A stretch of 35,700 nt of DNA from a virus, in the IMG/VR virus record IMGVR_UViG_3300006128_000005, positions 1-35,700 of that record. One strand, written 5' to 3'. Under the pieces are notes generated by a model. It worked only from the letters and a program-made list of their open reading frames with translations. It was not told the origin of the DNA and searched no databases. Positions 2,862-35,700 of the stretch are shown here, one piece after another. The translations under genes were made by a program, and so were the position numbers. Within the stretch, counting starts at the first letter, position 1; each line of letters starts with the position of its first letter.

Positions 2862-3409
2862 GAGTTTTAGTAGCTTGCGAATATTCAGGTCGAGTAAGAG
2901 ATGCTTTCATTAGGGGGGGGCACGAAGCCATGAGTTGTGATTTGTTGCCAACTGATCAGCCTGGGCCTCATTACCAAGGTGATGTAATGGACATCATTGC
3001 AGATGGTTGGGATTTAATGATTGCCCATCCTCCATGCACACATTTAGCGGTTTCAGGCTCGAGATGGTTTAAATATAAAGAAAAGGAACAGGCCGAGGCT
3101 TTGGAATTTGTGCGTTTACTGCTAAATGCGCCAATAAAACATATAGCTTTAGAAAACCCTATAAGCGTTATATCCAGCAAGATTAGAAAACCTGACCAAA
3201 TTATTCAGCCTTGGCACTTTGGGCATGGAGAAACAAAGGCAACTTGTTTGTGGCTTAAAAATTTACCCAAGCTATTGCCAACAAATATTGTGGAAGGTAG
3301 AGAAGCAAAGGTCCACAAGATGCCACCTAGTCCTGATCGGTGGAAATTACGCAGCACGACCTATCAAGGAATTGCCGATGCATTTGCCAACCAATGGGGG
3401 AACTTATGA
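2858..3409 (+). CDS. Cytosine-C5 methyltransferase-like protein
   Basis: 183 residues, about half the size of a typical C5 methyltransferase. Visible motifs are an N-terminal VLVACEYSGRVRDAF (3-17), WDLMIAHPPCTHLAVSG (51-67) whose PPC matches the catalytic cysteine motif, and IALENP (96-101) matching the ENV-type motif. C-terminal GIADAFANQW (171-180) resembles the SAM-domain closing helix. A separate target-recognition domain seems absent, so activity and specificity are uncertain; many phages carry this short version. It may modify phage DNA against host restriction. Eight consecutive G bases at 2913-2920 (residues 19-21) are a potential slippage site. ATGA overlaps tie it to both neighbours. 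Confidence 0.7.
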   Translation: MRVLVACEYSGRVRDAFIRGGHEAMSCDLLPTDQPGPHYQGDVMDIIADGWDLMIAHPPCTHLAVSGSRWFKYKEKEQAEALEFVRLLLNAPIKHIALENPISVISSKIRKPDQIIQPWHFGHGETKATCLWLKNLPKLLPTNIVEGREAKVHKMPPSPDRWKLRSTTYQGIADAFANQWGNL

Positions 3410-3615
3410 AAAAGACTTCAAAAGTAGCGAAGAATACCGTCACCAGTGCGAAGTTCGATGGCTTCTTAGATTCAGAAATGAACAGGGATTACAGCGCTTC
3501 AGAGAGTATTTACGATCTCCTGGATTTGGCGCACGACTTACAAGAATCCTACATGACGTATCGGAACAATGGAAGAAGGGGAATCGAGGAAGGATGGGAG
3601 ATTGGCGATGAGTGA
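3406..3615 (+). CDS. Hypothetical 69-residue protein
   Basis: Begins MKKTSKVAKNTVTSAKFDG, with a helical acidic middle (SIYDLLDLAHDLQESYMTY). I chose the ATG at 3406, which overlaps the methyltransferase stop as ATGA, over the longer frame starting at 3340 inside that gene. It ends 8 nt into the next gene. Family not recognised; coupling suggests it belongs to the replication operon. Confidence 0.65.
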   Translation: MKKTSKVAKNTVTSAKFDGFLDSEMNRDYSASESIYDLLDLAHDLQESYMTYRNNGRRGIEEGWEIGDE

Positions 3616-3943
3616 TTTAGAGCATTTAAACGATAGCCGAGTAGAAAAGGCTTTGATATTTTTATCTTCTACCGATGAGGACCATGCAATATTGGCTGGT
3701 GAGGTCAAACGCTTGGAAGAGTGGATTAAGCAATCAAAGGCCCATGCCTTTTTGCTTTCGCAAGGAACGGTTGCGGAGCGAGAGGCCCAAGCGCTAGATA
3801 GCCCCTCTTATAGCAAAGCTGTAGAAGAGTGGGCCAATACATTTAAAGAGTTTAAGACTTTAGACAACAAGCGCCAGCATGAAATACGGATTACTGAAAT
3901 ATGGCAAACACTTAGCGCAAACCGCAGAAAGGGAAGTTTATGA
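3608..3943 (+). CDS. Conserved helical phage protein, 111 residues
   Basis: Predicted to be almost entirely alpha-helical with a probable coiled coil. It contains RVEKALIFLSSTDEDHAIL, then GTVAEREAQALDSPSYSKAVEEW-type sequence and ends RKGSL. This pattern resembles small proteins of unknown function found in phage replication and recombination regions. I chose the ATG at 3608 (MSDLEHL) rather than an upstream start at 3569 inside the previous gene. The stop overlaps the next ATG (ATGA). Confidence 0.7.
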   Translation: MSDLEHLNDSRVEKALIFLSSTDEDHAILAGEVKRLEEWIKQSKAHAFLLSQGTVAEREAQALDSPSYSKAVEEWANTFKEFKTLDNKRQHEIRITEIWQTLSANRRKGSL

Positions 3944-7281: not shown

Positions 7282-7318
7282 GAAGGGCCTACAAGCACGT
7301 GAAACTTGTAAGCCCTTC
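7282..7318 (+). terminator. Strong two-part stem-loop between genes
   Basis: GAAGGGC (7282-7288) pairs with GCCCTTC (7312-7318), and TACAAG (7290-7295) pairs with CTTGTA (7305-7310), with a single C/A mismatch between and a nine-base loop. It has no T-run, so it is a weak intrinsic terminator at best; it could be a 3' stabiliser, processing site or partial terminator between 7273 and 7345. Confidence 0.5.
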
Positions 7319-7344: not shown

Positions 7345-7623
7345 ATGGCTGGTATAGATTCTAAAGTTAGCTGTAAAGAATGTCGATATTATCGGAATGC
7401 CGATATTATGGGCCGTTGCCACCGCTTTCCTGAAGCTGTCAATAAAACTATGAATGATTGGTGCGGTGAGTGGAAGTCACTTATTCCGCCACCAGTTATT
7501 GAATATATGGTTCAAGATTTGTCTAATCAGCCAAATGAAGCAAGAGCCAAAATCTTAGAAGAGGCAGCAAAGGTTCAACCCAAGCCTAAAGGCAGACCTA
7601 AAAAGGTTGAAAATGCCATCTAA
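7345..7623 (+). CDS. Small Cys-rich protein with AT-hook-like tail
   Basis: 92 residues. C10, C13, C25 and C40 (SCKECRYYRNAD, GRCHRF, DWCGEW) form a likely zinc or metal site of the type common in short phage proteins. The C-terminus KPKGRPKK (80-87) matches an AT-hook core and would bind the minor groove of AT-rich DNA. A DNA-binding accessory role is inferred. CGGAGAACTAA precedes the ATG; it overlaps the next gene by 11 nt. Confidence 0.65.
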   Translation: MAGIDSKVSCKECRYYRNADIMGRCHRFPEAVNKTMNDWCGEWKSLIPPPVIEYMVQDLSNQPNEARAKILEEAAKVQPKPKGRPKKVENAI

Positions 7624-7789
7624 CGCACATATAACTATCGAAGTTGACGATGATGGTTTTGTTGAGTTTATTTGTAAATCAAATGGACCTGACGAAGCCC
7701 ACCGAGTCATGATAGAAGTTATGGATTTAATTGACCGTTTTAATGGTCACAATGCTATTAGTCCAACTGAAACGCATGGTGTGCAATGA
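7613..7789 (+). CDS. Hypothetical 58-residue protein
   Basis: Begins MPSNAHITIEVDDDGFVEFI, an acidic beta-hairpin-like start, followed by a helix (AHRVMIEVMDLIDRF). Start taken at the ATG at 7613; a TTG two codons earlier is open. It overlaps both neighbours (11 nt upstream, ATGA downstream), placing it in the same translation unit as the GroES-like gene. Confidence 0.6.
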   Translation: MPSNAHITIEVDDDGFVEFICKSNGPDEAHRVMIEVMDLIDRFNGHNAISPTETHGVQ

Positions 7790-8091
7790 AACTACAACCT
7801 TTAAACGACAAAATAGTAGTAAAACCTGAAAAACGACAGCTTAGTTCCATTATTTATGTTGAAAACAAGGAAGTTGACAACATGGGAACGGTTGTCGCTG
7901 TAGGCCCTGGCAAAAAAGTTAATGGACGCAGAGAAGCTATGCCTATTAATGTGGGGGCTTATGTTCGCTTTGGAACAATGAATGACAACGCTAAAGACGA
8001 ATATTTAAAGTATTTTGAGTATTTTGAAGAAGGTGAACGCTATCTCGTTATGAGTTGGCAGGACATTTGTTTTGAACAGGAGATTGCATAA
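7786..8091 (+). CDS. GroES-like co-chaperonin (Cpn10 family)
   Basis: The 101-residue product follows the GroES layout: the opening strand LQPLNDKIVVKP (3-14), a short mobile-loop region with the hydrophobic patch SSIIYV (20-25) that would contact GroEL, then MGTVVAVGPGKKVNGRREAM (33-52), VGAYVRFG (56-63), and the closing strand YLVMSWQDIC. Bacterial GroES is about 97 residues, so length fits. T4 gp31 is the classic phage co-chaperonin replacing GroES for capsid folding; P22-type coat proteins are known GroEL clients, so assisting coat folding is a reasonable inference. No groEL gene is present, so it must use host GroEL. Coupled by ATGA to the gene before and TAATG to the gene after. Confidence 0.8.
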   Translation: MKLQPLNDKIVVKPEKRQLSSIIYVENKEVDNMGTVVAVGPGKKVNGRREAMPINVGAYVRFGTMNDNAKDEYLKYFEYFEEGERYLVMSWQDICFEQEIA

Positions 8092-8291
8092 TGGAAGATA
8101 TTGTTACAAATCAATCGTTATTAGAGAAAATAATGGCGCATTTTGGCTGGTATAAGGTTAAAAAAGTAGAGTTTGAGTTTGAGAGCTTTGACATTACCTA
8201 TTCTTTTAATAATAAAAAACCTGAACCTACTTTTCCAGTAAAGCCAGCCCTTAAAAAGGCTACCACTAGAAAGCCAAAAAATGGCAACTAA
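8091..8291 (+). CDS. Hypothetical 66-residue protein with basic tail
   Basis: MEDIVTNQSLLEKIMAHFGW opens an alpha/beta protein; the C-terminal third is Pro/Lys-rich (KPALKKATTRKPKNGN) and likely disordered. Its start overlaps the GroES-like stop (TAATG), its end overlaps the next gene by 11 nt. Not recognised. Confidence 0.6.
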   Translation: MEDIVTNQSLLEKIMAHFGWYKVKKVEFEFESFDITYSFNNKKPEPTFPVKPALKKATTRKPKNGN

Positions 8292-8556
8292 ACATGACAA
8301 ACCAATCCCTCATAAAACCACAGGGAAAGACAAAACATACAACCCAACCGAAAAAGGCGCTGGTATGACCGCTAAAGGTCGTGCTGAATACAACGCTAAA
8401 AACGGCAGTCATTTAAAGCCTCCTGCGCCAAATCCTAAAACAGAAAAGGACAAAGGCCGTAAGGCTTCTTTCTGTGCAAGGATGGAAGGTGTAGTTAAAA
8501 AAGCCAAAGGTCCAGCTGAAAGGGCCAAAGCATCACTTAAAAACTGGAACTGTTAA
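8281..8556 (+). CDS. Conserved phage protein, DUF6321-like
   Basis: 91 residues, highly basic. The order YNPTEKGAGMTAKGRAEYNA, GSHLKPPAPNP, RKASFCARMEGV and the terminal LKNWNC matches a small family widespread in tailed phages (I recall it as DUF6321). Its function is not established; it often sits near packaging or DNA-modification genes, as here. Confidence 0.7.
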   Translation: MATKHDKPIPHKTTGKDKTYNPTEKGAGMTAKGRAEYNAKNGSHLKPPAPNPKTEKDKGRKASFCARMEGVVKKAKGPAERAKASLKNWNC

Positions 8557-8705: not shown

Positions 8706-8896
8706 ACATTAAAGACATTGAAATTGAATTAACACATACCGCTGGCGAAGTAGAATTGATTCTTGCTGGCTTGCGTAAGTTACCTATGGAATTGGTTCAA
8801 GAACTGCATGGAAAAATAATTAACCTTGCAAATCAAAAGGTTGCAGATCATATTGCTGCAAATACACCAGCAACACCTGAAACTCCAGCCCAGTGA
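8702..8896 (+). CDS. Hypothetical 64-residue protein
   Basis: MNIKDIEIELTHTAGEVELI then LAGLRKLPMELVQELHGKII: helical, with a Pro/Thr-rich tail (NTPATPETPAQ). Overlaps the basic protein upstream by ATGA and the methyltransferase downstream by GTGA. Family not recognised. Confidence 0.65.
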   Translation: MNIKDIEIELTHTAGEVELILAGLRKLPMELVQELHGKIINLANQKVADHIAANTPATPETPAQ

Positions 8897-10101
8897 AAAT
8901 AGAACAGCGCACCGTTGATTCGTTGATTCCTTACATCAACAATAGCCGAAAGCATTCAAATGACCAAGTGGCTCAAATTGCAGCCAGCATTAGAGAGTTT
9001 GGTTGGACTAATCCCATATTGGTTGATGGCGCTAATGGCATTATTGCTGGGCATGGCCGTCTGCTTGCTGCTCGCAAGTTGTCTATGGATAAAGTTCCTG
9101 TTATCGAACTTGCCCATCTATCAGAGACTCAAAAAAAGGCTCTTATTATTGCTGACAATAAGTTAGCTTTAAACAGCGATTGGGATACAGAGTTATTAAC
9201 AGTAGAACTACAAGACCTATTAGGCGAAGATTTCAACTTAGACCTATTAGGCTTTGATAAAGACGAATTAGACGCTTTATTGAACGTAATAGAGCCAACA
9301 GAGGGATTAACCGATGAAGATGCTGTTCCTGATGCTCCGCTTACACCTAAGTCGAAGATGGGCGATATATTTAGTCTTGGAAACCATCGTCTTATGTGCG
9401 GTGATTCAACTTCTATTGATAGCGTAGAAAAGCTGACAAACGGTTTAGTTGACATATTAGTTACCGATCCGCCATATAACGTTGCATACGAAGGAAAGAC
9501 CAAAGACGCACTAACCATTCAAAACGACTCTATGGGAGATGAAGCGTTCCGCCAGTTCCTAAGAGATGCTTTTGTAGCGGCAGACGCTGTAATGAAGCCA
9601 GGCGCTGTGTTTTATATTTGGCATGCTGACTCAGAAGGCTATAACTTTAGGGGTGCTTGTAAAGACGCTGGCTGGAAGGTCCGTCAATGCCTAATATGGC
9701 AAAAAGACACAATGGTTATGGGCCGTCAAGACTATCATTGGAAACATGAACCTTGTCTATACGGCTGGAAAGACGGTGCAGGGCATCTATGGGCCTCAGA
9801 CCGTAAGCAAACCACTCTTATAGAGTGCAAGCGTCCTAAGCGTAACGATATCCACCCAACGATGAAGCCTGTAGAGCTTATGGAGTATCAGATACTGAAC
9901 AACACCAAAGGACAGGATTTGGTGCTAGACTTATTTGGTGGTTCAGGGTCTACCCTAATTGCTGCTGAAAAAACAGGCAGAAAAGCGGCTTTAATGGAGC
10001 TAGACCCCAAGTATTGTGACGTCATTATCAAACGATGGCAGGAATTTACTGGAAAGCAGGCAATCCATATAGAATCAGGCCTAGAGTTCGATAAACTTTA
10101 A
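8893..10101 (+). CDS. ParB-domain / DNA methyltransferase fusion (N4/N6-type)
   Basis: 402 residues. The N-terminal ParB/sulfiredoxin-type nuclease-like domain shows LIPYINNSRKHS (11-22) and GIIAGHGRLLAARK (49-62). After a linker, the methyltransferase has the catalytic DPPY at 192-195 and the SAM-binding FGGSGST at 348-354. This order (catalytic motif before SAM motif) is the beta-class arrangement. It methylates an amino group of adenine or cytosine; specificity cannot be read. ParB-methyltransferase fusions are common in phages and often lack a partner restriction enzyme. Starts at GTG inside a GTGA overlap. Probably protects phage DNA or sets transcription or packaging marks. Confidence 0.85.
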   Translation: MKIEQRTVDSLIPYINNSRKHSNDQVAQIAASIREFGWTNPILVDGANGIIAGHGRLLAARKLSMDKVPVIELAHLSETQKKALIIADNKLALNSDWDTELLTVELQDLLGEDFNLDLLGFDKDELDALLNVIEPTEGLTDEDAVPDAPLTPKSKMGDIFSLGNHRLMCGDSTSIDSVEKLTNGLVDILVTDPPYNVAYEGKTKDALTIQNDSMGDEAFRQFLRDAFVAADAVMKPGAVFYIWHADSEGYNFRGACKDAGWKVRQCLIWQKDTMVMGRQDYHWKHEPCLYGWKDGAGHLWASDRKQTTLIECKRPKRNDIHPTMKPVELMEYQILNNTKGQDLVLDLFGGSGSTLIAAEKTGRKAALMELDPKYCDVIIKRWQEFTGKQAIHIESGLEFDKL

Positions 10102-10121: not shown

Positions 10122-10472
10122 ATGCAAGAACATATTCCTACTGAAAAGACCAAAGTTCAGGTTCTGCAAGCTGCAGGGCTTGGGCTTCCGCATGAGCAAA
10201 TTGGCGCTTTAATTGGTATATGCGACAAGACATTACGCAAGCATTACGAGATAGAACTTGCGCTTGGTAAGGCTCAAGCGTCCGCTAAAGTGGCCAATTC
10301 CTTGTTTAATAAGGCTATAAAAGGCGATACAACGGCAGCTATTTGGTGGACCAAGGCTCAAATGGGCTGGGGTGAAACCAATACAACCAAGTTGGCCAAC
10401 GCAGACGGTTCAAACATAACTGGCTTTGAGATCATCCTAACCGATATTGATGGAACAAGATCAGAGGCTTAA
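10122..10472 (+). CDS. Terminase small subunit
   Basis: 116 residues. The N-terminal helix-turn-helix (AGLGLPHEQIGALIGICDKT, 18-37) would recognise the packaging site. The helical middle (KVANSLFNKAIKGD, then TAAIWWTKAQMGW) matches small terminase subunits of PBSX-like and related phages. It lies directly before the large subunit and overlaps it by 23 nt. The ribosome-binding sequence is weak (ATAAAAG). Confidence 0.8.
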   Translation: MQEHIPTEKTKVQVLQAAGLGLPHEQIGALIGICDKTLRKHYEIELALGKAQASAKVANSLFNKAIKGDTTAAIWWTKAQMGWGETNTTKLANADGSNITGFEIILTDIDGTRSEA

Positions 10473-11739
10473 CCAGGTTCTTGCTAAGGCAAGATTCCCT
10501 AAAAAGCTGGAAGTTCTATTTAATCCAAAGAACTGCCGTTACCGCATACTTTACGGAGGGCGAGGCGGATCAAAGTCTTGGAATATAGCCAGGGCTTTGC
10601 TTATTAAAGGCTTTAGAAGCCCACTGCGTATCCTTTGCGCTCGAGAGTTCCAAACATCTATTAGGGATTCGGTCCATAAGCTATTGTGCGACCAAATAGA
10701 AAACCTAGAGTTAGGTTGGTATTACAACATTACTCAGAACTCTATTGTAGGCAAAAACGGCACAGAGTTTACCTTTGTGGGCATTAAAAACAACACTAAC
10801 AACGTAAAATCTATCGAAGGAATTGATATTTGTTGGGTGGAGGAGGCGCAGAGCGTAAGTGCTAATTCCTGGAATGTATTAATACCAACAATCCGTAAGG
10901 AAGGCTCGGAGATATGGATTTCATTTAATCCTGAGTTAGAAACCGATGAGACCTATAAACGCTTTATATTGAACCCACCTGAAGATTCTGTGGTGCAGAA
11001 AATAAACTGGTCTGATAACCCTTGGTTTCCTGAGGTTCTAGACTTAGAGCGCCAGGCACTTAAAAATAGGGATTTATCCGCTTATAACAACGTTTGGGAG
11101 GGTATTTGCCGAACTCAAATCGATGGCGCTGTATTTGGTAAAGAGATGGAAGTGGCCGAGCTAGACGGCAGGATTACTAGAGTGCCTTACGATCCAATTA
11201 AGCCTGTTCATGCTGTGTTCGACCTTGGGTGGGCCGATTCAACAGCCATTTGGTTTGTGCAATTTATTGGCATGGAAATTAGGGTTATTCGATATATAGA
11301 GGACAACCAAAAAACTATAAGCCATTACCTAGCCCAAATGCAGACCTATGGCTATGTGTATGACACCTTATGGCTACCCCATGACGCTGCCGCTAAGAAC
11401 TTAGGCACAGGCAAATCTATTGAGGAAATAGTGCGTTCTACTGGCTGGAAGGTGCAAATACTAGACCGAGTGCCTATTACTGATTCTATAAACGCAGCAA
11501 GAACTATCTTTGCAAAATGCTATTTTGATAGGCAAAATTGCGAAGAAGGCTTACAATGCTTAAGACATTATCGCTATGACGTTGATCCTGAAACTGGCGC
11601 ATTTAGTCAGAAGCCTATTCATGACCAATATTCTCATGGCGCAGATGCCTTTAGATATATTGGATTGATGGTCAACGAGCCTAAGAAGCCGAAGCCACAA
11701 AGACAAAATTATGCCCAGTTGGGCAGTTGGATGGGATAA
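10450..11739 (+). CDS. Terminase large subunit
   Basis: 429-residue packaging motor and nuclease. The ATPase domain has Walker A GGRGGSKS (36-43) and Walker B DICWVEEA (126-133). The RNase-H-like nuclease domain has D258 in AVFDLGWADS, D312 in LPHDAAAKN and D399 in SHGADAFRY, all in the expected order. Type is Terminase_3/XtmB-like. With a P22-like capsid and a circular assembly, headful packaging with circular permutation is likely. Start taken at the ATG at 10450. Confidence 0.95.
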   Translation: MEQDQRLNQVLAKARFPKKLEVLFNPKNCRYRILYGGRGGSKSWNIARALLIKGFRSPLRILCAREFQTSIRDSVHKLLCDQIENLELGWYYNITQNSIVGKNGTEFTFVGIKNNTNNVKSIEGIDICWVEEAQSVSANSWNVLIPTIRKEGSEIWISFNPELETDETYKRFILNPPEDSVVQKINWSDNPWFPEVLDLERQALKNRDLSAYNNVWEGICRTQIDGAVFGKEMEVAELDGRITRVPYDPIKPVHAVFDLGWADSTAIWFVQFIGMEIRVIRYIEDNQKTISHYLAQMQTYGYVYDTLWLPHDAAAKNLGTGKSIEEIVRSTGWKVQILDRVPITDSINAARTIFAKCYFDRQNCEEGLQCLRHYRYDVDPETGAFSQKPIHDQYSHGADAFRYIGLMVNEPKKPKPQRQNYAQLGSWMG

Positions 11740-11741
11740 AT

Positions 11742-13823
11742 ATGGCAGATTACGATAGCATCAACGACATGGAAGACGATTCTAGGATTTCCGAAGCCAA
11801 AGAGTTCTTACGACTATGCGGTGACGTAGATTCAAACAATAGAGCCGAAGCCTTAGATGATGTCCGTTTTGCTGCTGGTGACCAATGGCCTGTAGACGTT
11901 CAAAACAGCCGAGTCTTGGAAGCTAGACCTTGCTTAACGATTAACAAGGTAGACGCTTATATTCGTCAAATCTGCAACCAACAGCGCCAGCAACGTCCAA
12001 GAATTAAAGTGCATGGCATGAATAATGAATCAGACGCTAAATTAGCCGAGATTCTTACTGGTGTATGTCGTCATATAGAAACACAATCAAACGCTGATAA
12101 CGCTTACGACACAGCTTTTGAATACGCAGTAAAGATGGGTTGGGGATATTTTAGGGTTACTACTGATTATGTGTCAGACGATACATTTGAGCAGGAAATC
12201 TATATTCGTCCTATTGATAACCCTTTTACCGTATATTTTGATCCAAATTCCCAACTGCCAGACGGTTCTGATGCTGAACGCTGCTTAATTACTACCGTAT
12301 TAAGTAAACGAAACTTCAAGGTCCTTTACCCTTGGGCTGAGGTAGATCAAGGTTTCAGTAGCAGAGGCACTGGGGATACCAACAATGAATGGGTAATGAA
12401 AGAAGATATTCGGATTGCCGAGTATTTTTATACCGTAAAAGAACCTGCAAAACTTTACTATTTATCCGATGGCACTAGCGTCTATGAGGATGAATACAAA
12501 AAAGTTAAAGACTTGCTAGAAGAGGCTGGCATCGAGGTATTAGACAAGCGAGACAGCTACAAAAAGAAGATTAAGTGGTGCAAGCTAACAGCCATGCAAA
12601 TCCTGGAAGAAGGCGAGTGGGCTGGTAAATATATCCCTATTATTCCTGTATATGGCCAACAAGTTATTGTAGATGCCAAGCATAAGAAGTTTGGCTTGGT
12701 TCGTATGGCTAAAGACCCACAACGGATGTATAACTACTGGGCCACCAGCTTGACCGAAACCGTAGCCCTAGCGCCTAAGGCTAAATGGATTCTTGCTGAA
12801 GGCCAAGACGAAGGCCATGAAAACGAATGGGCAATGGCTAATATTAAAGCCACACCTTACCTGCGTTACAAGCAGACGGATACAGAAGGACGGATGGCCC
12901 CTCCTCCTACAAGACAATCGCCTGAACAGCCTCCTACAGGGGTTATGGCTGCATTAAGCGGTATGAATGCAGACTTGCAGGCTGTGGTTGGTATATACGA
13001 CCCTAGCCAGCTACCGCAAGGCAACCAATCAGGCAAGGCTATCCAAGGTCAACAGCAGCAAGTTGACATGGTTAACTACCATTACTATGACAATTTGACT
13101 CGTTCTATTGCATATTGTGGACGTATTATTTTGGATTTGATTCCCAAAATTTACGATACTGAGCGAGTGTTGCGCATAATTGGCGATGACGGCAAGCCTG
13201 AACTGGTTACTTTGAACCAGCGCACCGTTGACGAGCAAGGTGTAGAAAAGATCATGAACGATGTATCCGTTGGCAAATATGACGTTGTTATGGATACTGG
13301 CCCAGGCTATTCATCCAAGCGCCAAGAGGCTGTAGATGCTATGACCAGCTTGTTTGCTGCCGATCCTAACTTAGTTCAAGTAGCTGGTGACCTATTTGTG
13401 CGTAATATGGACTTCCCAGGCGCTGACGTTATTGCTGACCGTTTGGCTGCTATGAATCCAATGTCGCAAATTGATGAGAAATCCCCTATTCCGCCACAAG
13501 TTCAGATGCAACTTAAACTTAATCAACAGCAACTCCAGCAAGCACAGCAAGCTATTCAGCAATTACAGCTTGATATTAAGCATGGCGCTACCGTTAAACA
13601 GTTGCAAGAAGATGCCGAGACCAAGCGAGAGCTTATGCGTCAAACAGCTAAGGCGCATGATATTGAAATGCGAGACGCTACCAAGCAAACTGATACGGTT
13701 ATTAACAACCAAACCAAGCTGGAAATTGAACAGCTTAAGGCTAATTTGGCTTTAGTTTTGGCTCACTTAAATTTAAGAACAGAAAAGGCAGCCGAAGCTG
13801 AAGCAATTGAACGAGCAATTTAA
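11742..13823 (+). CDS. Portal protein, P22 gp1-like
   Basis: 693 residues, close to P22 gp1 (725). The portal forms the dodecameric DNA entry ring at one capsid vertex. The N-terminal half shows the family pattern (FAAGDQWPVDVQNSR, RPCLTINKVDAYIRQ, KMGWGYFRV). Towards the C-terminus come GVMAALSGMNADLQAV and GNQSGKAIQGQQQQVD, then a long Gln-rich coiled coil (about 590-690) comparable to the P22 portal barrel that projects into the capsid. Start at ATG 11742, two bases after the terminase stop; the frame is open to a TTG at 11727. Confidence 0.9.
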   Translation: MADYDSINDMEDDSRISEAKEFLRLCGDVDSNNRAEALDDVRFAAGDQWPVDVQNSRVLEARPCLTINKVDAYIRQICNQQRQQRPRIKVHGMNNESDAKLAEILTGVCRHIETQSNADNAYDTAFEYAVKMGWGYFRVTTDYVSDDTFEQEIYIRPIDNPFTVYFDPNSQLPDGSDAERCLITTVLSKRNFKVLYPWAEVDQGFSSRGTGDTNNEWVMKEDIRIAEYFYTVKEPAKLYYLSDGTSVYEDEYKKVKDLLEEAGIEVLDKRDSYKKKIKWCKLTAMQILEEGEWAGKYIPIIPVYGQQVIVDAKHKKFGLVRMAKDPQRMYNYWATSLTETVALAPKAKWILAEGQDEGHENEWAMANIKATPYLRYKQTDTEGRMAPPPTRQSPEQPPTGVMAALSGMNADLQAVVGIYDPSQLPQGNQSGKAIQGQQQQVDMVNYHYYDNLTRSIAYCGRIILDLIPKIYDTERVLRIIGDDGKPELVTLNQRTVDEQGVEKIMNDVSVGKYDVVMDTGPGYSSKRQEAVDAMTSLFAADPNLVQVAGDLFVRNMDFPGADVIADRLAAMNPMSQIDEKSPIPPQVQMQLKLNQQQLQQAQQAIQQLQLDIKHGATVKQLQEDAETKRELMRQTAKAHDIEMRDATKQTDTVINNQTKLEIEQLKANLALVLAHLNLRTEKAAEAEAIERAI

Positions 13824-13879: not shown

Positions 13880-13899
13880 GTTAATTCTTGGAGTTATCC

Positions 13900-14826
13900 A
13901 TGTCAGAAGTGCAAGAGCGGTTGGCAACAAATGTAGTAACAAGTGAAAATTTAGTCGATTGGACCATGAATCGCTTAGGTTTAGCTACCGAGGAAGCGCC
14001 AGTTGAGGCTGAAGCAGTTGAGGAAACTCCTGAGTCAGAGCCGATTGTTGAAGCTGAAGGTGAGAGTGAACCAGCATCAGAACCTGAGACAAAAGCAACA
14101 GAGGAACGGAAACAAAATCCTAAACTCGAGAAGAGATTCTCTGAGCTTACTAAGGCTAGAAAAGAGGCAGAAGAGAAAGCTGCCAAAGCATTAGCTGATA
14201 AAGAGGCTTTAGAGGAGCGCTTAAAGCAATTTGAAACGGTATCGACACAACCTAAAGAAATCGATCCTGTAGGAGAAGAGCCAAAAGCGGAGCAGTTTAC
14301 CGATGCCATTGAGTATGCGAAAGCACTCGCAATGTGGTCAACTGAGAAGGCTTTGTATGAGCGAGACATGCAAGAGGCACAGCGTAAAGCTGCCGAAGAA
14401 CAGGCTAAGATTGCAAAATCTTGGGCTGAAAAGGTAGAAAAAGCTAAACCAAACTTGCCTGACTTTGATGACTTGGTGACATCAAGTAACGTCCAGGTTT
14501 CTAATGAAATCAGAGATGCTATTTTGGAGTCCGATGTAGGACCACAAATCCTATATGAATTAGCATCAAATACAGAATACGCTCAAAAGGTGGCAGGAAT
14601 GCCATTGATCAAAGCCTTGCGAGAGATTGGGAAATTGGAGGCTCGTTTTGAGACGCAGGAAACTGCGCCTGAACCAGCGAAGAAGCCTGTTGCTGTGCAG
14701 TCTAAAGCGCCTGCTCCGATTAGTCCGCTTAAGGGAACTGGAAGTGCTGAAGTTATAACTACTGATACAGATAAGTTAACTTACGCACAATACAAGGAAC
14801 TTAGGAAAGCTAGACGGATTAGGTAA
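13900..14826 (+). CDS. Scaffolding protein, P22 gp8-like
   Basis: 308 residues (P22 gp8 has 303). Very acidic Glu/Ala-rich N-terminal third (EEAPVEAEAVEETPESEPIV), a long coiled coil (RFSELTKARKEAEEKAAKAL), and a short basic C-terminal helix TYAQYKELRKARRIR that is typical of the coat-binding domain of P22-like scaffolds. It guides procapsid assembly and exits before packaging. It lies between portal and coat exactly as in P22. Start at ATG 13900 with GGAG eight bases upstream. Confidence 0.85.
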   Translation: MSEVQERLATNVVTSENLVDWTMNRLGLATEEAPVEAEAVEETPESEPIVEAEGESEPASEPETKATEERKQNPKLEKRFSELTKARKEAEEKAAKALADKEALEERLKQFETVSTQPKEIDPVGEEPKAEQFTDAIEYAKALAMWSTEKALYERDMQEAQRKAAEEQAKIAKSWAEKVEKAKPNLPDFDDLVTSSNVQVSNEIRDAILESDVGPQILYELASNTEYAQKVAGMPLIKALREIGKLEARFETQETAPEPAKKPVAVQSKAPAPISPLKGTGSAEVITTDTDKLTYAQYKELRKARRIR

Positions 14827-14854: not shown

Positions 14855-16102
14855 ATGAGTAATAATTTATTAACTATCTCGAAGATCACCAACGAAGCGT
14901 TGATGGTCCTCGAAAACGAACTAACATTCACTTCTGAAGTTGACCGCAACTATGACGATCAATTCGCTGTCGTGGGTGCTAAGATTGGTAACACCGTTAA
15001 CGTAAGACGTCCTGGACGCTTCATTGGAACTACAGGGCCTGCTCTTAACGTTGAAGACTTCAATGAAACTTCTGTTCCTGTAACTTTGTCGACACAATTC
15101 CATGTGGACACACAATTTACAACTCAAGATTTGGCATTGAGCCTCGATATGTTTTCTGATCGAGTGCTAAAACCTGCGGTGGCCGCAATTGCAAATAAGA
15201 TCGATCGTGACGGTTTGGTAATGGCTAAGAACGCAACCTACAACACTGTAGGCGTCGCTGGCACACCTCCAACTGGCTTGATCACTTACTTGTCAGCTGC
15301 TGCATACCTCGACTCTGAAGGCGCTCCTCGTGACGGCCGTCGTGCTTGTATCGTTGATCCATTCACATCTGCAACTATCGTTGACAGCTTGAAAGGCCTC
15401 TTCGTTCCACAAGAAGCAATTGGCGAGCAATATCGTAAAGGCCTGATGGGTCGTGACTCCGCTGGCATGAACTGGAAACTCGATCAAAACGTTGTGGCAC
15501 AGACATACGGTAACTTCAGCACAACTACTGTTACTGGCTCTGTAAACGTAACAACTGCAACTGGCTTCTTGACAAGCGGTTGGGCTTCTAACAGCACAAT
15601 CACTTTGACTGCTGCTAACACAGGCACAATCAACTTAAACCAAGGCGATACATTCACCATCGCTGGTGTATATGCAGTTAACCCACAGAACCGTCAGTCA
15701 TACGGCAAACTGCGTAACTTCGTAGTTAACAGCGCTGTTTCTGTTGCTTCAGGTTCTTCTGTTTCTGTAAACGTATCTCCAGCAGTTATTACCGCTGGTC
15801 AGTTCCAAAACGTTTCTGTAACAACTACTGGCGCTCAAGCTGTAACATTCTTTAACAGCACTGGTGTAACTTCTAATCAAAACATGATCTTCCATCGCAA
15901 TGCATTCACATTAGCGGTAGCAGACCTTGAGTTGCCTGAAGGTGTTCACTTTGCTGGACGTGCGTCTGATAAAGAAATTGGTCTCAGCATGCGTGTGGTT
16001 CGCCAATATACAATCAACAATGACAGTATTCCTACTCGTCTTGACGTATTGTATGGTTGGGCTCCTCTGTATCCTGAACTTGCTTGCCGAGTTGCAGCTT
16101 AA
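14855..16102 (+). CDS. Major capsid protein, P22 gp5-like
   Basis: 415 residues (P22 gp5: 430). The N-terminus (SNNLLTISKITNEALMVLEN) and VDRNYDDQFAVVGAKIGNTV match the P22 coat family, followed by VNVRRPGRFIG and VTLSTQFHVDTQFTTQDLAL. A beta-rich, Thr/Ser/Val segment at about 222-335 would correspond to the inserted I-domain region of the HK97 fold. The P22 coat is a known GroEL/GroES client, which makes the GroES-like gene in the same genome notable. Good AAGGAAA ribosome-binding site. Confidence 0.9.
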   Translation: MSNNLLTISKITNEALMVLENELTFTSEVDRNYDDQFAVVGAKIGNTVNVRRPGRFIGTTGPALNVEDFNETSVPVTLSTQFHVDTQFTTQDLALSLDMFSDRVLKPAVAAIANKIDRDGLVMAKNATYNTVGVAGTPPTGLITYLSAAAYLDSEGAPRDGRRACIVDPFTSATIVDSLKGLFVPQEAIGEQYRKGLMGRDSAGMNWKLDQNVVAQTYGNFSTTTVTGSVNVTTATGFLTSGWASNSTITLTAANTGTINLNQGDTFTIAGVYAVNPQNRQSYGKLRNFVVNSAVSVASGSSVSVNVSPAVITAGQFQNVSVTTTGAQAVTFFNSTGVTSNQNMIFHRNAFTLAVADLELPEGVHFAGRASDKEIGLSMRVVRQYTINNDSIPTRLDVLYGWAPLYPELACRVAA

Positions 16103-16128: not shown

Positions 16129-16578
16129 ATGTCTAATCCAGGACCAGCAATTACTAACTCAACCCACCCATCGAACCTTAACAGCCAACAAGCTCTGCGT
16201 GTTTTAGCAGTTCTTAAGGGTGTTAGCGTTGCAGCTTTGGGTGATACACCATTGCCTGTAATTAACAGCGCTTTGTATTTGCCTGTAACTGTTGTTATTG
16301 CTAACGCAAACAACAACGGTGCAACGCAATCCGTAGCTTCTGTTAACTTAGGTATCTACACAGCACCTTCAGGTGCAAGCGGTTCAGGAACAGCAGTTTT
16401 GACCACAGCAGCATTAACTGGTCAAACTACTCCTTCCTATGTAACTGTTTCACCATCAACTGATACAGCTACTGCTTTGTCAGCACAAACCTTATACATC
16501 AACCAAACAACCGCTGTAGCTACAGCGACTGTGGACGTTTATGTTTACGGTTACGACCTAAGCCCAGGTTACTATTAA
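16129..16578 (+). CDS. Probable capsid-surface or structural protein
   Basis: 149 residues, beta-rich and dominated by Ala, Thr, Ser and Val: MSNPGPAITNSTHPSNLNSQ, then LPVINSALYLPVTVVIANAN. No catalytic motif. It directly follows the coat gene with its own AAAGGAAA site and is followed by a clear terminator, so it is likely made in large amounts with the coat. Head decoration is a plausible inference. Confidence 0.6.
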   Translation: MSNPGPAITNSTHPSNLNSQQALRVLAVLKGVSVAALGDTPLPVINSALYLPVTVVIANANNNGATQSVASVNLGIYTAPSGASGSGTAVLTTAALTGQTTPSYVTVSPSTDTATALSAQTLYINQTTAVATATVDVYVYGYDLSPGYY

Positions 16579-16596
16579 TCTGAGCTGATTTAAGGG

Positions 16597-16628
16597 AAAA
16601 AGCCATCTTTAAAAGGGTGGCTTTTTTT
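16597..16628 (+). terminator. Rho-independent terminator after the coat block
   Basis: AAAAAGCCA (16597-16605) pairs with TGGCTTTTT (16618-16626) around a 12-base loop, followed by a run of seven T (16622-16628). Clear terminator geometry; it would end or attenuate the late transcript after the coat and probable decoration genes. Confidence 0.75.
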
Positions 16629-16650
16629 CCATTTAGTCTTATAATTAATT

Positions 16651-16672
16651 AACCCATTTTTTGGGTTTTCTT
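16651..16672 (+). terminator. Second stem-loop with T-rich tail
   Basis: AACCCA (16651-16656) pairs with TGGGTT (16662-16667) around a T5 loop, followed by TTCTTT. It stands 23 bases after the first terminator's T-run and just before the next gene's ribosome-binding site. It could be a second weak terminator or a leader hairpin. Confidence 0.4.
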
Positions 16673-16687
16673 TGCAAAGGAAAAACT

Positions 16688-17026
16688 ATGTCTAGCACTA
16701 CCGTAACTCGTGGGAATTCCCATGAAACTTTTTACATCCAGCCTACTTTTGACAATACATCAAATTCACTAGCTGCCAACACTACAACTGCTGTTACTTA
16801 CAACGTTCCAGGCTTGTTGACTACCGACCAAATTTGCGTTTTTGGCTATAACGGTTCACAAACTGCTGGTGTTGTTATTGCAGAAGCTGATTGCCTTACA
16901 AACGGTGTTTTGACCATTCAGTTCGGCAATTTGACCTCTACTGCTACTTTGAAGCCAGCAAGTGGTGTTTATACTATTCAAATCGTCCGCATCGAAGGTA
17001 ACCCAGCGCCAGTTAACGCTGCTTAA
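16688..17026 (+). CDS. Small beta-rich structural protein
   Basis: 112 residues from the ATG at 16688 (AAAGGAAA upstream); the frame is open further upstream through the second hairpin, which I reject as coding. MSSTTVTRGNSHETFYIQPT and VFGYNGSQTAGVVIAEADCL suggest a compact beta domain. Position after the coat terminator and before the fibre genes suggests a virion surface or tail-related part. Family not recognised. Confidence 0.6.
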   Translation: MSSTTVTRGNSHETFYIQPTFDNTSNSLAANTTTAVTYNVPGLLTTDQICVFGYNGSQTAGVVIAEADCLTNGVLTIQFGNLTSTATLKPASGVYTIQIVRIEGNPAPVNAA

Positions 17027-17035
17027 GGAATAAAC

Positions 17036-17374
17036 ATGGCAAACACATCGGTTTACCGTTTTGTTGGCCCTACAACTGCTATTACGGTTAGTGGAACGGC
17101 CTCAACAGCCGTTACCATTACCCCAAGTGGCAATGACCAGGTCAACTACTGCGGTTTTTTAAATACTTCAGCTAATCCTGTTGCTATTACTATTACCCCA
17201 ACTTCTGCTCCTGCGGCTGTATTGCCAACAGGCGGAAACACAAGCCAATCCTTTGTCTTGGGTGTAACTATGTCGCAACCAACAGTTATTGCAGTGCCTC
17301 CTATTTTTTCGATTACTGCAATTGGAACTTCAGGAACAACCCTATATGTAATGCCAATGGCTGACCAATCATAA
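17036..17374 (+). CDS. Small beta-rich structural protein
   Basis: 112 residues: MANTSVYRFVGPTTAITVSG, then VTITPSGNDQVNYCGFLNTS, and TLYVMPMADQS at the end. Same length and character as the preceding gene but not an obvious duplicate. Likely a virion protein; precise location unknown. Confidence 0.6.
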   Translation: MANTSVYRFVGPTTAITVSGTASTAVTITPSGNDQVNYCGFLNTSANPVAITITPTSAPAAVLPTGGNTSQSFVLGVTMSQPTVIAVPPIFSITAIGTSGTTLYVMPMADQS

Positions 17375-17383
17375 GGAATTATT

Positions 17384-19792
17384 ATGGCTGTTAATGATTC
17401 TGTAACGCAGAATTTACTGCCTGTTCAGGCTTATTTTAATGTCGATGGATCGTTTAACACCTTCATCGGCCAAGGTCAGCCTTTTTACGCAACATCTAAC
17501 CCTATTCAATCAGGGTTAACCATTACAAATAGCACCTTAGATAGCAGTCCTATAGGTGCAACTACTCCGTCAACTGGTGCTTTTACCAATATCACCACCA
17601 CTACTGGTCAAATTACGACTCAGCCTAGCGGTGCAACCGATATTGTTAACCTTTTAGCGTTGCAATCGTATGCGGCAGGCATTAGCTGGAAACAGCCTTG
17701 TGCCGTTGCTACTTTGACCAATATTACGCTTTCAGGCCTGCAAACTATTGATGGTTACACCACATTAGCTGGTGACCGAGTATTAGTAAAAAACCAATCA
17801 ACTGCCGCTAATAACGGCATTTATATTGCTGCAAGTGGCGCTTGGGCTCGTTCTTCCGATGCTAATACCTGGAATGAGCTTATTTGCGCTATTTCCTTTA
17901 TTGAATACGGCACACAAGCTGGTGGCGCTTGGTTTTGCACAGCGCAACCAGGTGGCACATTAGGAACAACAGCGGTCAATTGGTCACAATTTACAACCTC
18001 TGCTACATATTCTGCTGGCACAGGGTTAACCCTTACTGGTTCAATATTTAGTATTACTCCACAAGGAACAGCAGGAACATACGGTTCTGCATCTACCGTT
18101 CCTGTATTTACTACTAACGCAAGTGGCCAAGTAACAAGCGTTACAAACACCTCTATTGCTATTGCTGGCTCTCAGGTAAGCGGCAATATTAGCGGCAACG
18201 CTGCAAACGTAACAGGAGTGGTTGCTGTGGCCAACGGTGGCACAGGCGCAAGCACATTAAGCGGTTACCTATTTGGCAACGGAACAGGCGCTGTAACGGC
18301 CTCTTCTAGCATTCCTACTAGCGTTTTAAGTGGCACTATTAGCAACGCTCAATTAGCCAATAGTTCTATTACCGTAAACGGCACAGCTATTTCTTTAGGC
18401 GGTAGCGCTACTATTACCGCAGCAGCCCCAAATGCTTTAACTATTGGCACAGGCTTAACAGGAACTAGCTATAACGGCTCTTCTGCCGTAACTGTGGCTA
18501 TTGACAGCACCGTAGCTACTTTGGCTGGTTCACAAACGCTTACAAATAAAACAATTAGTGGCGCAAGCAATACTTTGACCAATATTGGCAACAGTTCGCT
18601 TACTAACTCAAGCATCACTTTTGGCTCTACAGCTGCGGCCCTTGGCACTACTGTTAGCGCCTTAAACGGTGTATCGATTGGCGCAACAACTCGCTCAAGC
18701 GGTGATTTCACTACTTTAAGTGGCAATACCGTTACAAGCACAACCCCTGTATTGAGCTTTAATGCTTCCAATACTATTGCTTCATTTGGATCAACCACAA
18801 GCAGTTCATATAACCAGCTAGTTATTCAAAACCTTAGCAATAGCGCTGGCGCATCGGCAAACTATGTCGTATCTAATAATCTAGGAACGGATTCTAGCTA
18901 TTACGCTGAAATGGGCATGAATTCGTCCACATTTAGCGCATCTACACCAGCCGATTTTTACAGCATTAATAACGGCATTTATTTCTCAGGTCATGATGGC
19001 GATATTGCGGTTGGTTCAGGCAACGGATATAAGCTGTATTTACCTTGGGGCGCAACCCCAAATAATGCCCATGTGATCAACGCAAGCGGTGCTATTGGTT
19101 TATCTACCAACTTAGGCACAACACCTGCTACAAGCGGCACAACAGGCTATGGTTCTGCTGGCCAGGTATTAACCAGCCAAGGCTCTAGCGCTGCGCCAAC
19201 TTGGACCACTATTGTTAGCGGTTTGACTATTACTGACAACACCAGTTCTAGTTCAACTTACTATCCAACGATGGAAACAACTACTAGCGGAACGGCTACT
19301 AGCTTATATACATCGTCTACTAAGTTTAGCTTTGTGCCTTCTACTGGCACTTTAACTGCTACAACGTTTAACGGTGCTTTGACAGGAAATGCCACAACAG
19401 CCTCTAGTGCCGCTAAATGGACCACCGCAAGAACTGAGTCTTTAACAGGCGATATTACTGGCTCTACAACGGTTGACGGTTCTGCAAACTATTCAATTGC
19501 CACTACTTTAGCGACAGTTAATAGCAATACAGGCTCATTTGGCTCAAGTTCAGCCATTCCTGTAATTACTGTAAACGGCAAAGGTTTGATTACTGCGGTA
19601 TCTACAGCAACGGTTGCTGGTGGCCAATATTACGGAACTGCGACAACCAAGGCTATTGCTTATAACTCAAACTCTATTGCTGAAAACATTACGATTTCTG
19701 CTGGAACTAACGGTTTGACGGCTGGCCCTGTAACGATTTCCACAGGATATACAGTAACCGTAGCAACAGGCAGCAGATGGGTTGTTGTTTAA
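17384..19792 (+). CDS. Tail fibre protein
   Basis: 802 residues of beta-repeat sequence with the vocabulary of phage fibres: ATTPSTGAFTNITTTTGQ, VANGGTGASTLSGYLFGNGT, GSQTLTNKTISGASNTLTNI. The N-terminal 130 residues (VQAYFNVDGSFNTFIGQGQP) probably attach to the virion. A compact module around 130-200 (TLAGDRVLVKNQSTAANNGI) recurs in many fibres. The end, SGTNGL-like then TAGPVTISTGYTVTVATGSR and WVVV, is shared with the next gene (23 of the last 36 residues identical). No S74 chaperone domain is visible. Likely receptor-binding or shaft component. Confidence 0.8.
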   Translation: MAVNDSVTQNLLPVQAYFNVDGSFNTFIGQGQPFYATSNPIQSGLTITNSTLDSSPIGATTPSTGAFTNITTTTGQITTQPSGATDIVNLLALQSYAAGISWKQPCAVATLTNITLSGLQTIDGYTTLAGDRVLVKNQSTAANNGIYIAASGAWARSSDANTWNELICAISFIEYGTQAGGAWFCTAQPGGTLGTTAVNWSQFTTSATYSAGTGLTLTGSIFSITPQGTAGTYGSASTVPVFTTNASGQVTSVTNTSIAIAGSQVSGNISGNAANVTGVVAVANGGTGASTLSGYLFGNGTGAVTASSSIPTSVLSGTISNAQLANSSITVNGTAISLGGSATITAAAPNALTIGTGLTGTSYNGSSAVTVAIDSTVATLAGSQTLTNKTISGASNTLTNIGNSSLTNSSITFGSTAAALGTTVSALNGVSIGATTRSSGDFTTLSGNTVTSTTPVLSFNASNTIASFGSTTSSSYNQLVIQNLSNSAGASANYVVSNNLGTDSSYYAEMGMNSSTFSASTPADFYSINNGIYFSGHDGDIAVGSGNGYKLYLPWGATPNNAHVINASGAIGLSTNLGTTPATSGTTGYGSAGQVLTSQGSSAAPTWTTIVSGLTITDNTSSSSTYYPTMETTTSGTATSLYTSSTKFSFVPSTGTLTATTFNGALTGNATTASSAAKWTTARTESLTGDITGSTTVDGSANYSIATTLATVNSNTGSFGSSSAIPVITVNGKGLITAVSTATVAGGQYYGTATTKAIAYNSNSIAENITISAGTNGLTAGPVTISTGYTVTVATGSRWVVV

Positions 19793-35513: not shown

Positions 35514-35700
35514 TATTGCTCTAGCAAAATCAATCACCAACTTGTATTCAGAATAATGAAATGTATTTGCTGCCATTTTCAATATTTCCTCATCTGTTAG
35601 GTCTGCTGGATGGGTGTAGAGTGGTTCTGCACCTTCTACAGGTGCTTGATAAATACTCCAATACCCATCTGTATCTTTGCTTCTCCACGCTACTGGTTCA
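35490..35700 (-). CDS. C-terminal part of the 145-residue protein that crosses the joint
   Basis: Continuation of the leftward gene that starts at 345. This stretch encodes about residues 77-145 (the first part duplicated because of the 118-bp overlap) and ends at TGA 35492-35490. The C-terminus reads ARAILRKAQEK. The stop overlaps the ATG of the downstream exonuclease as ATGA, which indicates translational coupling. No start is present in this fragment; it is not a separate gene. Confidence 0.85.
   Translation of the reverse strand, partial: EPVAWRSKDTDGYWSIYQAPVEGAEPLYTHPADLTDEEILKMAANTFHYSEYKLVIDFARAILRKAQEK
35583..35700. repeat. Right copy of the 118-bp terminal identity
   Basis: Exact copy of bases 1-118. 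It holds the middle part of the leftward 145-residue gene whose start is at 345 and whose stop is at 35490 on the circle. Confidence 0.95.

Follow-up and report, generated by a model that had tools for sequence, protein, structure and literature searches.

Co-inheritance of a GroES-like co-chaperonin gene with the portal, scaffold and coat genes of one branch of P22-type phages

If a small phage encodes the lid of the chaperonin cage without encoding the cage itself, which proteins would that lid serve, and why would the phage need a lid of its own? This question is raised by a 35,700-base viral record (IMG/VR IMGVR_UViG_3300006128_000005), analysed here over its whole length and referred to below as the window, in which a GroES-like (Cpn10) co-chaperonin gene of 101 amino acids runs on the plus strand from an ATG to a TAA at positions 7786..8091, as recognized by profile, PHROG match, structural model and dN/dS. 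The first and last 118 bases of the record (1-118 and 35583-35700) are identical, and these shared ends make it probable that the genome is complete, and either circular or terminally redundant. No match to Cpn60/GroEL (PF00118) was found in the window or in 15 related records; this agrees with the statement of an earlier, first-pass annotation that a GroEL gene is absent, and it rules out a hidden phage GroEL in these records. Because the phage has no Cpn60 of its own, the GroEL partner of the protein must be that of the host. Phages are well known to encode GroES homologues that work with the GroEL of the host (PMC7185714).

The encoded protein is a genuine member of the Cpn10/GroES co-chaperonin family. 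The Pfam Cpn10 model (PF00166) matches residues 2-94 (E 2.3e-10; the score is 40.8 bits, the cut-off 21.1), its PHROG match is phrog_3188 (co-chaperonin GroES), and solved GroES chains match it by sequence with a best E of 2.6e-6. A scan with the protein recovered relatives encoded in 158 viral contig stretches, and purifying selection acts on the reading frame (353 pairs compared, median pairwise dN/dS 0.12); these two observations imply that the open reading frame did not arise by chance, a possibility that the Cpn10 profile and the conservation of the gene likewise rule out. None of the NCBIfam GroES models (PRK00364 subfamilies) scored above its curated cut-off (best, 43.7 bits against 96), and we therefore file the protein as a Cpn10 rather than as a canonical bacterial GroES; since the loop and roof features of T4 gp31 are absent, it is not filed as gp31-type either. 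With Pfam, PHROG, PDB sequences and the predicted fold all in agreement, the original identification of a GroES-like protein of 101 residues at this position holds.

The gene is flanked closely on both sides. A 58-aa open reading frame with no assigned function (7613..7789, plus strand) has a stop codon that overlaps the GroES start (ATGA), and the ATG of a 66-aa open reading frame (8091..8291, plus strand) overlaps the GroES stop (TAATG), an arrangement that is consistent with a single operon. A default-setting search detected no inverted repeat just upstream of this operon, a terminator scan returned a hairpin of 15 pairs (7282-7318, minus strand), and promoter-like sites did not exceed their frequency in shuffled sequences. 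Downstream lies a DUF6321 open reading frame (8281-8556, plus strand), whose product corresponds to the C-terminal part of longer proteins in other phages (its PHROG matches fall at the ends of the profiles); phage DSL-LC05 encodes a 74% identical copy. The interval between GroES and the terminase also contains a gene for a ParB-like N-terminal domain fused to a DNA methyltransferase (8893-10101; phrog_498, PDLC03229). There follow, all on the plus strand, the terminase small subunit (10122..10472; phrog_309), the terminase large subunit (TerL; 10447..11739; phrog_3717), for which some relatives that carry GroES have a replacement or no match, a P22-type portal (11727..13823; PF16510, E 1.3e-183), a scaffold protein (13888..14826; phrog_8865) and a P22-type coat protein of 415 aa (14855..16102; PF11651, E 1.5e-39). 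The gene had been described as lying beside a P22-type coat module, and a P22-type coat and portal are indeed encoded in the same genome, but the coat gene begins 6.8 kb downstream, with the methyltransferase, terminase, portal and scaffold genes in between. Xanthomonas phage PBR31 (MT119766) and L225, a provirus found in Paraburkholderia sp. CNPSo 3274, belong to the coat lineage of the window (55-57% identity) and likewise have GroES followed by terminase, portal, scaffold and coat.

A first AlphaFold2 model of the window GroES, built from 27 sequences, reached a pLDDT of 77.6. Its top 31 Foldseek matches are all GroES/Cpn10 structures (E 1.8e-6 to GroES), and by VIA-align it scores Z 10-13 to GroES/Cpn10, with Z 13.2 to Mycobacterium tuberculosis Cpn10 (1p3h) and Z 7.3-7.8 to T4 gp31. 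These Foldseek and VIA matches rest on the first model and not on the second, which was obtained from a more diverse alignment, has a pLDDT of 83.2 and leaves residues 15-32 without secondary structure. The two features on which the first-pass annotation had staked its reading are both present: a Cpn10 barrel in the predicted fold, as the Foldseek E value and the Z of 13.2 attest, and a mobile loop that is unstructured in both models.

According to the alignment and both models, the mobile loop spans residues 14-33 (PEKRQLSSIIYVENKEVDNM; 7825..7884, plus strand) and is the part of the core with the lowest confidence, devoid of secondary structure in each. When counted from the first barrel strand to the next conserved glycine, the loop has 20 residues; in three bacterial assemblies that also contain a relative of this phage, the GroES loop has 24. 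Residues I22-I23-Y24 (7849..7857, plus strand) align with the IVL of E. coli GroES and are presumably the hydrophobic triad that binds GroEL, as is established for GroES. They are preceded by S-S where bacterial GroES has G-G (or S-G), such that the loop glycine has been replaced, and the motif L-S-S-[IV]-I is conserved in the GroES lineage of the window. An IIYV patch in a shortened mobile loop, as first noted, is therefore an accurate description (residues 22-25; 20 residues against 24). The roof-hairpin segment is kept in the window and aligns at residues 41-56 (PGKKVNGRREAMPINV; 16 aa; 7906..7953, plus strand). In all, the protein has in common with bacterial GroES/Cpn10 (E. coli and M. 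tuberculosis 1p3h) the whole-domain profile match, the barrel, the mobile loop and the roof segment, whereas the shorter loop, the S-S in place of G-G and a longer C-terminal half set it apart.

Among the relatives of the window, both loop and roof vary in length. The GroES proteins of PBR31 and L225, which are 31-32% identical to that of the window, have 30-residue loops bearing a canonical motif, A-G-I-L-V or C-G-I-L-V, and the L240 group, which also falls within the coat clade of the window, has a loop of 33 residues; these longer-loop subclades carry SAGILV and EGFVL motifs. The roof segment is reduced to 9 residues in L157, compared with 16-17 elsewhere, and is similarly lost in L082 and L084. 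The genes without a roof hairpin (L157, 4628-4900; L082, 11032-11316; L084, 15001-15258) parallel T4 gp31 in this respect. We infer that such changes in loop and roof tune the affinity for GroEL or the size of the cage; the shorter loop and the lost glycine before the triad might weaken the binding of GroEL.

RB49 CocO is, like T4 gp31, a phage-encoded Cpn10. In T4, the major capsid protein gp23, which is the client of gp31 (PMC6318259; PMC9576892), cannot fold without this GroES homologue (PMC6318259). The loop of gp31 is longer than that of GroES (22 versus 16 residues as counted in PMC6318259), and roof loops are absent from it. The comparison with gp31 that had been proposed at the outset succeeds in one respect, in that both proteins are phage-encoded Cpn10s unaccompanied by a phage GroEL, and fails in others: the loop of the window protein is shorter than that of GroES, not longer, its roof is kept rather than absent, and the two are only 13% identical over their structural match. 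Given the shortened loop, the lost glycine, an altered C-terminal part (EYLKYFEYFEDGERYLVMSWQDICF) and the loss of the roof hairpin in some sublineages, one could ask whether this Cpn10 fold still works with GroEL at all, or has instead become, for example, a capsid or scaffold accessory or an inhibitor of GroEL. We give this idea hardly any credence: a flexible loop with a hydrophobic triad has been retained in every member of the lineage, the longer-loop subclades included, and T4 gp31 likewise departs from GroES in loop and roof, yet works with GroEL (PMC6318259).

When the results of a portal scan and a GroES scan were pooled and only loci with a portal and at least 5.5 kb of upstream sequence were kept, GroES was present in all of them (57/57). 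A test independent of GroES used as queries the coats of PBR31, L184 and L206 (a GroES-free Paraburkholderia provirus), also drew on bacterial genomes, and was confined to loci that had not been fetched by the GroES query, that extended at least 7.5 kb upstream and that had distinct coats. GroES occurred in all 40 such loci with a coat at least 50% identical to that of the window, in two of the 24 at 45-50% identity (L244 and L276, both of which fall inside the GroES clade on the tree), in none of the five at 40-45%, in one of the 12 at 35-40% (L400) and in none of the 14 below 35%; the loci are mostly metagenomic fragments and the identity bins follow clades, and because neighbours on the tree are related, these counts do not represent independent events. 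Within the sister coat clade (45-48% identity), a search of whole records with the Pfam model detected no Cpn10 of any kind in 26 near-genome-length records. In 89 of 89 carriers, GroES and coat share a strand and GroES comes first, 4.6-7.8 kb upstream of the coat.

Only four of 17 named phage records with a P22-type portal contain GroES (two relatives of Manatee Spring, PBR31 and DSL-LC05), and Cpn10 is absent from the other 13, Sf6 among them. The first-pass description of the gene as unusual in a small P22-like genome is therefore right for most P22-like phages but not for the lineage of the window, where it is a core gene; nor does it extend to small phages more widely, in that the HTVC023P-type pelagiphages, which are small podophages, are reported to have GroES as a core gene (PMC9599517). 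The CHAB-I-5 roseophages are also small podophages with GroES (PMC10149686); they and the HTVC023P type belong to other phage groups, and we liken their GroES to that of the window by description. Phage GroES is thus already known, from T4 gp31, from the core genes of pelagiphages and from the annotations of PBR31 and DSL-LC05, and the window represents a new lineage of it.

In a tree built from the coats of 105 phages, a single clade (SH-aLRT 99) takes in 56 of the 57 GroES carriers. Long branches among the GroES-free outgroups make the deep parts of the trees unsure. When the presence of GroES is mapped as a label, it changes twice on the coat tree, twice on the portal tree and five times on the TerL tree. 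The main groups of the GroES tree are those of the coat tree, and the phage proteins stand apart from the sampled bacterial GroES (SH-aLRT 87, for a short protein with weak deep forks). In PBR31 and L225, which have GroES and coats 55-57% identical to the window's, TerL is only 29-32% identical, and L184 has kept GroES, portal, scaffold and coat while no counterpart to the window TerL was found. Matches to the scaffold over its length come mainly from GroES carriers. That TerL has been replaced or has diverged while GroES and the head genes stay indicates that GroES goes with the portal-scaffold-coat block; since the portal and coat trees fit equally well, the trees do not separate portal from coat as the client. 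The retention of GroES wherever this type of shell genes is retained suggests that the lid helps to fold the shell proteins. That GroES keeps to this block in phages whose terminase has been replaced also lends indirect support to the first-pass suggestion that the protein may adjust host GroEL in favor of coat folding. In the limited open literature searched, we found no earlier account of GroES being constantly tied to a single branch of P22-type head genes.

One possible explanation for this pattern is that the gene is neutral or weakly useful cargo, retained by its linkage to the head genes. GroES is no more than 8 kb from the coat in all carriers, linkage alone would produce some co-inheritance, and what we observe within this 5-8 kb block could in part be due to it. 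As an account of the whole pattern, however, hitchhiking is very unlikely: the gene is under purifying selection (the median dN/dS of 0.12), there is no loss in the 40 GroES-independent loci of the coat clade, whose coats differ at up to half of their residues, and TerL, which is nearer to the head block, has been replaced while GroES stays. Purifying selection and the absence of loss together refute the strictly neutral form of the argument.

Two phages depart from the rule. Segment-wise identity shows the coat, scaffold and portal of L400 to be plainly of the sister clade, which rules out a mosaic coat that would have rescued the rule, and L400 is a true exception. Its GroES (3136-3471) is nested among those of soil phages of the GroES clade (98) and most resembles the L234 type, from which it appears that the gene was probably gained horizontally, beside a different coat. 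DSL-LC05 (L163) encodes at 3627-3875 a very divergent Cpn10 of 82 aa, directly before a P22-type portal; its coat groups with those of GroES-free phages, and we treat it as a separate case and not as a member of the coat clade. That GroES has come to lie by head genes more than once argues for a function in assembling the head. The bacterial assembly REEB109 contains two further very divergent Cpn10 genes (L437 and L438), perhaps from other phages.

It could still be argued that the protein acts on host GroEL as part of a general takeover that has no special link to the capsid, whether by adding to the supply of lids, by steering GroEL to numerous phage proteins (tail, ejection, replication) or by conferring tolerance of host damage. 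Such a role would suit the HTVC023P-type podophages, whose quite different genomes list GroES in the core genome (PMC9599517), the siphovirus B8b, which carries GroES (PMC4294664), and the position of the gene itself, upstream of the packaging genes and outside the head operon block. We nevertheless consider it unlikely, in that the presence of GroES follows the portal-scaffold-coat clade, whereas window genes for the tail, recombination and replication are mostly unmatched in the stretches examined from the distant carriers L225, PBR31 and L184.

The reading that we favor, and judge to be probable, is that the window encodes a gp31-like lid, which substitutes for host GroES as the partner of host GroEL while the procapsid proteins, most likely the coat, are folding. 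The protein would assemble into a seven-membered lid and bind host GroEL instead of host GroES during infection, and lid and host GroEL together would support the folding of phage procapsid proteins. The coat is the proposed main client of the cage formed by GroEL and phage GroES, with portal and scaffold not separable from it. Two things make it the likeliest candidate: no other head protein is as abundant, and the client of T4 gp31 is the major capsid protein. A GroEL cage has room for a protein of 415 residues such as the coat, so that a larger cage would be unneeded, in line with a loop that is not lengthened here. That a lid of its own serves the phage in supply, timing or affinity is speculation.

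Because well-studied P22-like phages such as Sf6, and the whole sister clade, lack a phage GroES, P22-type coats as such need none. A more far-reaching proposal is that one branch of P22-type capsids depends on its own co-chaperonin: GroES and the portal-scaffold-coat genes would form an inherited unit, the loop and roof would have diverged alongside the capsid, and the coat of this branch would fold poorly with host GroES alone. We advance this proposal tentatively, with the balance leaning slightly against it. It is mainly in T4 that the viral proteins responsible for a phage carrying its own GroES are known in detail. Two sister branches of one capsid type, of which one always and the other almost never has GroES, provide a natural comparison set, to which L400 adds a phage of the sister branch that has gained the gene. 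Whether, and why, a capsid lineage needs its own chaperonin lid is accordingly a question that can be tested with small phages, some of which are available as proviruses or isolates. In the relative L082 (MW202674), the coat gene (16569-18081) is annotated as two coding sequences with a small open reading frame between them. Among bacterial assemblies, the nearest match to the window phage is L181, a contig of 34 kb from a Methylococcales bin; it may represent a free phage that was sorted into that bin.
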